Assembly (NCBI RefSeq): GCF_015291745.1
Contig: NZ_CP030059.1
Coordinates: 1,267,501-1,331,500, forward strand
Origin: Bradyrhizobium sp. CCBAU 53351
Lineage (GTDB): Bacteria; Pseudomonadota; Alphaproteobacteria; Rhizobiales; Xanthobacteraceae
Length of the DNA: 64,000 bases
Reading direction: 5' to 3'
The position numbers and the translations under genes are program-made. The notes under the pieces are model-generated. The model did no database searches, was not told the DNA's origin, and worked only from the letters and a program-made list of their open reading frames with translations. The stretch's first letter is position 1. Each line of letters opens with the position of its first letter. Positions 61,958-64,000 of this stretch are shown here, piece after piece.

Positions 61958-61999
61958 TTGGGATTCAGCCCGGGCTCGACTCGGCCATTCATCCAAACG

Positions 62000-62034
62000 A
62001 AAGCGGCGGGGGTAAGCCCGCCGCTTTTGTTTCT
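62000..62034 (+). terminator. Rho-independent terminator of rpoD
   Basis: A perfect 11-bp stem (62000-62010 with 62017-62027) and a 6-base loop followed by TGTTTC. On the other strand it faces the reverse-transcriptase gene and may also serve it. Confidence 0.88.
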
Positions 62035-62059
62035 GGATGGGGAATTTGCCTAGCTCGAA

Positions 62060-63295
62060 CTAAGCGAAAAGATCGCTATTAGTTTCGTCGAAATCGACAT
62101 GGCTCATACCAAGAAATTTTCGTTGGTCGTCGGTTAAACGAGAGAGAGCCTTTTCTCCGAAAAGATCGAGAAAAATATCACCAATTATCTTTCGCGATGT
62201 CCCCCGGAGCGCGGAATCAAGTGAGACGAAGTTGTGAGCACCTTTGTAAATCGAGAAGTATGCTGAAATCGAATCCCAAACGTCGATGATCGTCTCTTGA
62301 AAATTGCTGTCTGCTTTCATGCGGGCCTGGATGGTGTATTCGTCCTCTAGCTTGCGCGCGATTTTTTGAATCTGTTTGGTGGCAACTCGCCAGACAGCCT
62401 GCTTATCATCTCCGACTCTGACAATTTCTCTGCCAAGGAAATCGATTGGATCGTCTGGGCCGAGAAGCTGCGTCTTGGACACATCGCTCATGCCAGGGAT
62501 TGACAAGCTAATGCGAGCCAGAGCGTCGCTGATTATCTTATGGCCTTTTTGGGCTTCTTGTTTGGTTTCAAAAAATGCCGCTATGTCATCCGCGTAGCGG
62601 ACCATTCTCACGCCAAGATACTCCATACGACTGTCAAATTCTGAAAGTACTAAGTTCGCCAAGATTGGCGACAGCGGCATTCCTTGTCTTATGCCATGCC
62701 CAAGCTGTATGCCGTGCTTTGAAATTTTGGCGCGATTCCAGATCGTGGGCTTCACCTCACAATCAATGAACTTGGAGATTATGGGAACGAGACTGTGCTT
62801 GCCGAGTGCTTTGCCCACGCGAGCTTTGAGATATTGGCGCGGTATTCTGTCAAAGAAGGACTCGATATCAGTCTTGAGGCACCAATCGTAAGATTGCCGA
62901 TATCCTACAGTCGCTTTAATGGCGGCTTCCGTTCCTAGGTCGCGCAAAAAGCCGAACGACGATGAATTGTATATTGGGAATTTTCGGTTCTTATCGAGAT
63001 AGAAGATGATCGCTCGTTGGACGAGACGATCGCACACCGTAGGGATGCAGATCATTCTTTCTTTTTCCGAGTTCGGCTTCGGAATAAAGACAGCCTTTAA
63101 CTGTGATGGCCCATATTGGCCCTGCTTCAATCTGCGAGCGAGTATGGCGAGATTGTTGTCTAGGTTCGCAGCGAACGCTGAGGCGGTTATGTTGTCGACT
63201 CCCGGTCGACCAGCACTCGGAGAGGAATCTCGAGACTCGTTCCAAGCCAACCGCAGCTTGGACTTTGAAAGGATTCTTGTTGGTCTCGGCGTCAT
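62060..63295 (-). CDS. Stand-alone reverse transcriptase
   Basis: A 411-residue RNA-directed DNA polymerase. The N-terminal finger part is group II-intron-like (LRLAWNESRD...PGVDNITASAF, KAVFIPKPNSEKERMICIPTVCDRLVQRAI). Catalytic residues are D143 (KTDIESFFD) and the YADD box at 234-237, with FLG at 286-288. Motif 4 is QGMPLSPILAN: it has SP rather than the SQ of diversity-generating retroelements. The thumb and C-terminal tail carry no maturase or endonuclease signature, and no intron domain V RNA is seen. Wobble bases are AT-richer than in rpoD. A group II-like or defence-associated (UG/DRT) RT is possible. Confidence 0.85.
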   Translation of the reverse strand: MTPRPTRILSKSKLRLAWNESRDSSPSAGRPGVDNITASAFAANLDNNLAILARRLKQGQYGPSQLKAVFIPKPNSEKERMICIPTVCDRLVQRAIIFYLDKNRKFPIYNSSSFGFLRDLGTEAAIKATVGYRQSYDWCLKTDIESFFDRIPRQYLKARVGKALGKHSLVPIISKFIDCEVKPTIWNRAKISKHGIQLGHGIRQGMPLSPILANLVLSEFDSRMEYLGVRMVRYADDIAAFFETKQEAQKGHKIISDALARISLSIPGMSDVSKTQLLGPDDPIDFLGREIVRVGDDKQAVWRVATKQIQKIARKLEDEYTIQARMKADSNFQETIIDVWDSISAYFSIYKGAHNFVSLDSALRGTSRKIIGDIFLDLFGEKALSRLTDDQRKFLGMSHVDFDETNSDLFA

Positions 63296-63343
63296 GCCGT
63301 TCGCACAAGCTCAGGATCGAGGATGTTGGTGCACCTAAGCTTG

Positions 63344-63634
63344 CTAGAACTGGCACCACCAGATGGTCAAAGACGCATCTGCTGGGTCTTGGAGCTTTGC
63401 AGCTGCCACGCTTGCGCGCGACACGCTCGGCTCGTGACAGATCACCGTCGTCTGGTCAATGGCGACAGTGAAGCCGCCACCAGATCCGGTAATTAGGTTG
63501 TTCGCCAGGCAAGTTCCCGCGAGCAGCGAAAGAACAAACCATGTACGAACGGTATCGGCCCACCGTCCCCGCTCTTTCGGCGCTCCGTCACAATTATCAA
63601 TAGTCCGCCTCTTAGCGTTACGCACCACGGACAT
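63344..63634 (-). CDS. Small membrane protein gene upstream of the reverse transcriptase
   Basis: A 96-residue frame. GGAGG lies 5 bases before ATG 63634, a strong ribosome site. It has a basic N-terminus, one hydrophobic helix (TWFVLSLLAGTCLANNLI), a GSGGG stretch, and then TTVICHEPSVSRASVAAAKL. That last part is the product of the 96-bp direct repeat copy at 63356-63451. The stop lies 48 bases before the RT start on the same strand. No family is recognised. Confidence 0.5.
   Translation of the reverse strand: MSVVRNAKRRTIDNCDGAPKERGRWADTVRTWFVLSLLAGTCLANNLITGSGGGFTVAIDQTTVICHEPSVSRASVAAAKLQDPADASLTIWWCQF
63356..63451. repeat. 96-bp direct repeat, copy 1
   Basis: Identical to copy 2 (63659-63754) except for one base: G at 63434 against T at 63737. 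It encodes the last third of the small membrane protein on the minus strand. The offset between copies is 303 bases, and both copies are in the same frame. Confidence 0.92.
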
Positions 63635-63658
63635 TGACACCTCCGTTGTTCTGCCGTG

Positions 63659-63754
63659 CCACCAGATGGTCAAAGACGCATCTGCTGGGTCTTGGAGCTT
63701 TGCAGCTGCCACGCTTGCGCGCGACACGCTCGGCTCTTGACAGATCACCGTCGT
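63659..63754. repeat. 96-bp direct repeat, copy 2
   Basis: The second copy lies upstream, on the minus strand, of the small membrane protein gene. Read in the same frame it gives CQEPSVSRASVAAAKL where copy 1 gives CHEPSVSRASVAAAKL. The frame stays open through both copies from 63874 to 63344. Confidence 0.92.
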
Positions 63755-64000
63755 GAGGCCGCTTTCGGAAAAGAAGCGATTGCCAACATTGTGAGAGCTA
63801 GGATCGAGATCCGATTCGCGCAAGAGTTGAACGGAAGCCGACGCAAAATTGGTTGGGTTTTCCAACTTTTTCACAGGCGGAAGTAAGCTGCTACCTCACC
63901 GACGGCTTCGCCCCAACCCGTTCGGTATGCTCACTCGCATCTGGCTCTCTCTAACAAATCTTCCGACGTGAAAGGCCCACTGATGCCTACCCGTCTCACC
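63755..64000. other. Islet end without a supported gene
   Basis: No gene could be supported here. The minus-strand frame that includes copy 2 opens at a GTG near 63874, but it has no clear ribosome site. The plus strand has no convincing start before the window ends. Confidence 0.4.

Follow-up and report, generated by a model that had tools for sequence, protein, structure and literature searches.

Long in-phase direct repeats beside a stand-alone reverse transcriptase in Bradyrhizobium and related loci: a possible template for an endless reading frame

What does a reverse transcriptase (RT) that stands alone in a bacterial chromosome copy, and do two long, nearly identical direct repeats beside its gene belong to the same unit? 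We addressed this question in a 64,000-nucleotide stretch of Bradyrhizobium sp. CCBAU 53351 (NZ_CP030059.1, positions 1,267,501 to 1,331,500; hereafter the window), which is part of an 8.3-Mb assembly of two contigs. A sequence-only reading had described here an RT gene with a small membrane-protein gene and the repeats directly upstream, and had proposed the repeat segment as a template or product region. On the minus strand, the elements follow one another in the order first repeat copy (R1), spacer (S), second repeat copy (R2), stem-loop and RT:

61962..63994, no strand: gap from the aligned end of rpoD to the next conserved gene, holding the islet, an insertion of about 1.9 kb
62060..63295, minus: stand-alone group II-like RT of 411 aa with YADD at the active site; it has an RT domain and a helical thumb
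63299..63350, minus: stem-loop with covarying pairs, behind R2 and ahead of the RT start codon
63344..63634, minus: small ORF, 96 aa, one candidate transmembrane stretch, stop just past R2
63344..63895, minus: stop-free frame over R1, S and R2, running from about 63895 to the stop at 63344
63356..63451, minus: direct repeat R2, 96 bp, which encodes almost the whole C-terminal third of the small ORF
63452..63658, minus: spacer S, 207 nt, containing the start and hydrophobic stretch of the small ORF; it evolves faster than R
63640..63644, minus: GGAGG, ribosome-binding site for the small ORF, with 5 nt between it and the ATG
63659..63754, minus: direct repeat R1, 96 bp, sharing the phase of the small ORF

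Re-measurement confirmed the two repeats of the earlier reading, with one mismatch (A in R1, C in R2) and a start spacing of 303, and the frame that it had described as open across both copies is indeed open. When the 303-nt unit is circularised, the small ORF frame contains zero stops; this holds for one sense frame, and the antisense frames contain 2, 1 and 4. The small gene is present with the ribosome site claimed for it, but its membrane character is less clear-cut in the window, where the best 17-residue hydrophobic stretch has a modest mean of 1.59, a value reached by 86 of 500 shuffles. Pfam assigned no family to the ORF adjoining the RT and found no SLATT match in it; the other neighbour is rpoD. 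The islet had also been called AT-richer than its flank, and its GC is 0.48–0.57 vs mostly 0.60–0.71 in flanking 500-base windows. No further copies of R-S-R2 were found in the window's own genome, which returned two matches of only 23 and 28 nt.

Placement of the reverse transcriptase

The catalytic motifs reported for the RT are intact: YADD is present and Pfam RVT_1 matches with an E value of 3.7e-28. In agreement with the first description, the Pfam search detected no endonuclease domain in the window RT, and Rfam at gathering thresholds detected no group II intron RNA in the window region (L005) or in the related loci L006 and L007. The group_II_RT_mat score of the window RT was 190 bits, below the curated cut-off of 300, and scores of 141–183 bits were obtained for P0191, L013, L021, L027 and L014. 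The best retron model reached 67 bits, also below its cut-off (235 bits).

The suggestion that the RT is of the UG/DRT type fared less well. Its Drt2 NCBIfam score was 47 bits vs a cut-off of 390, and its Drt3a score fell far under the cut-off; the UG17 profile, which has no published cut-off, gave 136.8 bits over profile positions 10–296 of 429, covering the RT domain only. The nearest folds were those of GsI-IIC RT (template-switching complex included) and G2L4 RT, and DRT10 was not among the fold matches listed. The window RT nevertheless differs from GsI-IIC RT and G2L4 RT in that no intron RNA was found around it, in belonging to a clade of its own relative to five group II RTs, and in its motif 5, which reads YADD and not the YIDD given for G2L4 RT in the available text of PMC4244168.

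The phylogenetic tree placed 16 repeat-bearing RTs, L014 and 14 homologues in one clade (support 99/97), separate from the outgroups, which comprised five group II RTs, two CRISPR RTs and three DGR-like RTs; L026, whose RT is broken, was omitted. The RTs of L022–L024 branched away from the repeat-RT clade. UG17 is not represented in the tree: searching 60 relatives and 14 control genomes for the family at 1e-60 returned nothing, an outcome that carries no weight either way. We rejected a group II intron, the outcome that the sequence-only reading had set against itself (an RT inside the group II clade with intron domains in the flanking DNA), on the intron RNA not found by Rfam, the score below the cut-off and the separate clade. 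The tests made thus place the window RT outside DRT2, the DGRs, the retrons and the group II introns; it may belong to a UG class without a model in PADLOC.

Three more RT genes or pieces lie on the second contig of the same genome (C2; 34699–35079, 113428–114084 and 116337–117035), and the two of them that were placed in the tree branch with group II intron RTs.

Conservation of repeats, reading frame and structure

The upstream DNA of each relative was compared with itself for direct repeats. A pair of 75–150 bp was present in 17 of the 20 distinct RT-group loci with enough upstream DNA (the window, L006, L007, L010, L011, L012, L013, L017, L018, L019, L021, L026, L027, L028, L050, L051 and L053). 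Loci fetched twice were counted once, L029 was merged with its near relative L013, and L020, with 129 nt upstream, was left out. The three repeat-less loci are L014 (Acetobacter, intact RT), L030 (rearranged RT) and L054 (RT fragment). The repeats occur in Bradyrhizobium and further members of the same family and order, in Acinetobacter, and on contigs from viral collections; RT identity to the nearer query RT (window or L013) ranges from 92% to 31%. Four other RT loci examined likewise (L002, L003, L004 and L008) had no such repeats. Because the pair recurs in 17/20 loci of the RT group and in 0/4 of the others, we conclude that it is not a chance feature, and the possibility that homologues never keep the upstream repeat, which had also been raised against the initial proposal, is answered by the same count. 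More distant RT loci on viral contigs either lacked repeats (L035) or carried DGR-type repeats of 77–86% identity (L022–L024, L036, L038, L039 and L040); L037 yielded no usable match.

Within a locus, the two copies are 0.90–1.00 identical vs 0.41–0.90 between loci (median 0.54; 13 representative loci), so both copies change together. Homogenisation is incomplete, since the window, L006, L007 and L011 have kept a common mismatch (A in R1, C or T in R2). Synonymous divergence of R2 is 0–0.11 in four Bradyrhizobium-group pairs while that of the RT is too high to compute, which argues that R is constrained as nucleic acid in this group. In the L027/L028 pair, R2 has diverged as much as S (50% nucleotide identity, dS 3.75). 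So R, as nucleic acid, is under constraint or is exchanged among close relatives, and it turns over from one group to the next. Constraint on S is weak, with a dN/dS of 0.43–0.63 in five pairs. On the Acetobacter plasmids L013 and L029, S is identical at an RT dS of 0.255; the repeat segment of this pair is probably either strongly constrained or exchanged.

For the reading frame, the unit was taken from the R1 start to the R2 start and treated as a circle. By start spacing, 13 of the 17 distinct units are multiples of three, all 13 with at least one stop-free sense frame. An 8-nt duplication in R1 shifts the start spacing of L050, in which the 3' repeat end joins S in phase and the frame is open. 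Measured at the repeats' 3' end, and with L050 added, 14/17 loci are in phase and stop-free when circularised, an excess over one-third (p 4.7e-5) that is also found when RT clusters are counted (10/11, p 1.3e-4). Clusters grouped RTs of >60% identity (the window, L006, L007 and L011; L010 and L053; L027 and L028), and L019 was joined with L026, to which it is 73% identical over 2.2 kb of DNA (repeats 97%). The frame is broken in L007 (302 nt, 1-nt deletion, RT intact), L017 (382 nt, RT intact) and L026 (452 nt, RT broken).

One open sense frame is not rare by chance in GC-rich units: the fraction of shuffles with one was 0.09–0.51 in the GC-rich in-phase units and <0.02 in L013, L019, L027 and L028. 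The highest chance openness (0.51) belongs to L021, where two antisense frames are also open. In the AT-rich Acinetobacter units L027 and L028 (GC 0.36–0.38), the open frame has 0 stops and the other two sense frames have 9–24. The small ORF has to be open through S and R2 in any case, which accounts for part of the openness. It does not account for R1 being in phase or for the lack of a stop at the R1-to-S junction. This junction is short (2–32 codons), with a chance of no stop of 0.25–0.93 per locus. Upstream of R1, only 0–5 codons are open in L018, L019, L021, L027, L051 and L053. Of 13 loci, 8 lack any ATG, GTG or TTG there in that frame; the start is not conserved, and the window has a GTG. 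Because the units are in phase and stop-free and no conserved start precedes R1, the R1-to-S junction appears to be kept for translation from a concatemer or circle.

Across eight loci, the stem-loop after R2 comprises 112 cells, of which 96.4% pair and 6 carry a change on both sides, a level that 0 of 500 shuffles attained. Pairing falls to 55% or less when the partner is shifted one column along. RNAalifold on R2 plus the hairpin gave 29 pairs, nine of them with at least one double change; the pairs include a hairpin inside R that has a GNNA-type loop in most rows. Single-sequence folding of R varies by locus (z of −4.1, significant, for window R2; 0.3, not significant, for L010).

The small protein measures 89–127 residues in 13 tabulated loci, with a best 17-residue hydrophobicity of 1.43–2.83, a value that at most 25 of 500 shuffles reach in 10 of these loci and 75–97 in the window, L013 and L053. 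The hydrophobic stretch sits in S in all 14 in-phase loci. A ribosome site and ATG lie in S in the 13 tabulated loci, whose starts were chosen by that criterion. Before the hydrophobic stretch of L019 there are only GTG codons and no ATG with a ribosome site, and in L013 the stop of the small ORF overlaps the RT start.

Three loci deserve separate mention. L014/L046, on Acetobacter pasteurianus plasmids, has an intact RT of the clade and no direct repeats, with a recombinase gene upstream and type ISP restriction genes behind. L026, on a viral contig, is a relative of the L019 unit with repeats 97% alike; its RT is broken and its unit is shifted out of phase by one base, as expected once selection ends. 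The L007 record (JAUEPE010000046.1) is titled Frankia sp. RB7, yet over 3.4 kb, rpoD and the islet included, it shares about 90% identity with the window; its Frankia label looks wrong.

Genomic setting and occurrence

Among nine relatives compared, G017 (L063) has about 95 bp between rpoD and the next conserved gene vs about 2.03 kb in the window, so the window islet is an insertion of about 1.9 kb. The islet lies directly behind rpoD in the window, L006 and L007; in L011/L076, rpoD itself is about 3 kb away and the islet adjoins a 71-nt copy of the 3' end of that gene. Such short extra copies of the rpoD 3' end, 64–71 nt long, were located next to the RT islet at L076:4630-4700 (86%) and L006:7254-7317 (81%), a hint that the rpoD end may be an integration site.

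Other loci have other neighbours: uvrA in L053/L078 (by Pfam) and in L010/L077 (by 94% identity to L053/L078), an AcrB-type gene in L051/L075, a terminase and DNA methylases near the RT on viral contig L021, DarT1 and its antitoxin (NADAR) near L028, and type ISP restriction beside the RT of repeat-less L046. No conserved partner gene emerged from the loci looked at, for which 20 neighbouring ORFs were scanned with Pfam (8 without a family). Such varied sites suit a cargo or defence gene and prove nothing.

The RT is rare in isolates, with 3 of 146 genus genomes matching at E 1e-40. It occurred in 5 of 391 family genomes, and 7 of 242 genus genomes matched in a search with the alignment at 1e-50, these samples overlapping one another; two phylum scans (398 and 329 genomes) matched the window's genome alone. 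Viral-collection scans yielded four contigs and six distant RT loci (L035–L040), with none or the same four contigs in other scans, and the phages collection yielded five partial matches to the window RT and none to P0191. Of 8,000 candidates scored in an alignment search for the RT family, 5,699 proteins passed E 1e-20, although the search probably reaches other RTs too; one Acinetobacter baumannii cluster accounts for 1,004 sequences.

Possible use of the repeats and alternative explanations

Two defence-associated RT systems serve as precedents for template jumping, with much shorter repeats. As described in the available text of PMC11100668 and PMC12039810, DRT2 is an RT beside a structured RNA whose repeated copying in a multiple-of-three unit creates a stop-free ORF; the studied system has a 120-bp unit with short conserved motifs at the template ends, and the neo ORF lies on the reverse complement of the RNA template (PMC12039810, methods). 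DRT10, in the available text of PMC12632851, has an A-B-A' template bounded by a direct repeat, from which tandem-repeat cDNA is made, and a SLATT partner; in Eco3DRT10, A is 4 nt and the unit 9 nt.

The likeness to DRT2 lies in a multiple-of-three unit with a stop-free frame, seen in the window and in 14/17 loci. The window group differs in its 75–150-nt repeats and 273–453-nt unit, in an RT outside the Drt2 family, and in an ORF that lies in the RNA sense with its start and hydrophobic stretch already present, whereas DRT2 neo is antisense. With DRT10 (UG17) it would share a repeat-bounded template, but DRT10 has a 4-nt repeat and SLATT, and the window has long repeats and a neighbouring ORF without a SLATT match. 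DGRs also combine an RT with two near copies of about 100 nt, but the window group lacks adenine-specific mismatches. A literature search by title and abstract start, with most subscription papers outside its coverage, returned nothing on long direct repeats beside such an RT.

The reading we favour, at about even odds, is that a group II-like RT jumps or recircularises on its own RNA by means of the repeats, producing tandem DNA with an endless membrane-protein ORF, like DRT2 neo. The islet would then be one retroelement-like unit whose RNA runs R1, S, R2, hairpin, RT and would be bound and copied by the RT. Because R1 and R2 are near-identical over 75–150 nt, the cDNA end made on R1 could re-anneal to R2, on the same or another RNA, and synthesis would continue; alternatively, a linear R1-S-R2 copy might recombine through the repeats into a circle. 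The product would be tandem or circular DNA of R+S units. Read in the small ORF frame, it would meet no stop and would encode a long membrane protein to which every unit contributes one hydrophobic stretch, whereas the genomic gene would yield the short protein only. Unlike in DRT2, every concatemer junction is already present in the genome and no new promoter or ORF start is formed; since all junctions exist there, a concatemer would add only copy number and the loss of the stop. This counts against the model, as do the three loci with a broken frame, the repeat-less Acetobacter member with its intact RT, the chance openness of GC-rich units, the weak constraint on S, the divergence of R2 in L027/L028 and the uneven folding of R. 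By analogy with DRT2, the product might be made or expressed under phage attack and be toxic, stopping growth in defence.

An endless R-S-R product is the simplest reading of the long near-identical repeats, their joint evolution, their phase and the lack of a conserved start before R1, and the original idea of a template or product region gains support from the conserved layout, the co-evolving repeats and the kept frame. The covarying hairpin and the fold similarity to GsI-IIC RT and G2L4 RT also speak for the model. These loci might further represent a distinct retroelement class that is spread widely through the proteobacteria. Its group II-like RT would employ long direct repeats on its own RNA much as retroviruses employ their terminal repeats, making a small membrane-protein gene into a tandem or circular one that lacks a stop, and endless-ORF synthesis would have been invented independently of DRT2, in the RNA sense and with repeats and start already genomic; we hold this broader claim tentatively, as somewhat short of an even proposition.

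Several alternatives account for part of these observations. A two-gene system without concatemers, which we consider rather unlikely, would make the S+R2 membrane protein a toxin or sensor and R1/R2 an RT-binding or translation-regulating RNA, with the RT making some other short cDNA. It accommodates a small ORF with its own ribosome site and stop, the L013 stop that overlaps the RT start, the conserved hairpins in R and the three loci with broken phase, yet leaves unexplained why R1 is in phase and stop-free with S in 14/17 loci and why the copies are near-identical over their whole length. The same frame, open over R1-S-R2 in 14/17 loci and with an upstream GTG in the window, could instead belong to an ordinary gene with an internal duplication, in which R1-S-R2 encodes one protein starting at or before R1. 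We judge this improbable: no start or ribosome site is conserved before R1, 8/13 loci have no start codon there (although starts inside R1 are possible), and the repeat is kept at the DNA level in the four Bradyrhizobium-group pairs (R2 dS 0–0.11).

A mobile retroelement, with R1/R2 like terminal repeats and a unit moved or exchanged via its own RT, would suit an islet that is missing at the same site in a relative, neighbours that differ between loci (rpoD, uvrA, AcrB, phage terminase), a patchy distribution (3/146 genus genomes at E 1e-40) and the 64–71-nt rpoD 3'-end copies in L006 and L011/L076. It is very improbable in our estimation, as the RT lies outside the repeats, the window's genome has no second R-S-R2 copy, no target-site duplication was seen around the window islet, and the window, L006 and L007 share the same site behind rpoD. 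The chance that the locus is a DGR, with R1 as the template and R2 as the variable region of the small gene, is close to nil. R2 is the 3' part of that gene, R1 is its near copy and the one mismatch in the window has A in R1 where R2 has C, but ungapped pairs have 0–5 mismatches each, of mixed types. The DGR pattern does appear in distant loci, where A lies in the second copy at 36/36 mismatches in L022–L024 (L022 and L023 being near-identical), 12/15 in L036, 31/32 in L038, 28/29 in L039 and 27/27 in L040. With these seven DGR-like loci as positive controls, DGR was rejected on mismatch types.

Long-repeat strand transfer is known from retroviruses. If the template-jumping reading is true, it would gain a bacterial counterpart with a coding product, and template-jumping gene synthesis would not be peculiar to DRT2, having arisen once more in a large family of group II-like RTs. 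A locus of 1.9 kb would also allow a direct test of what these unexplained RTs do.

L017, one of the loci with a broken frame, has a particularity of its own: in a concatemer, its ORF would reach a stop immediately ahead of its own ATG (TAGTATG), where stop-restart coupling could take the place of an endless frame.
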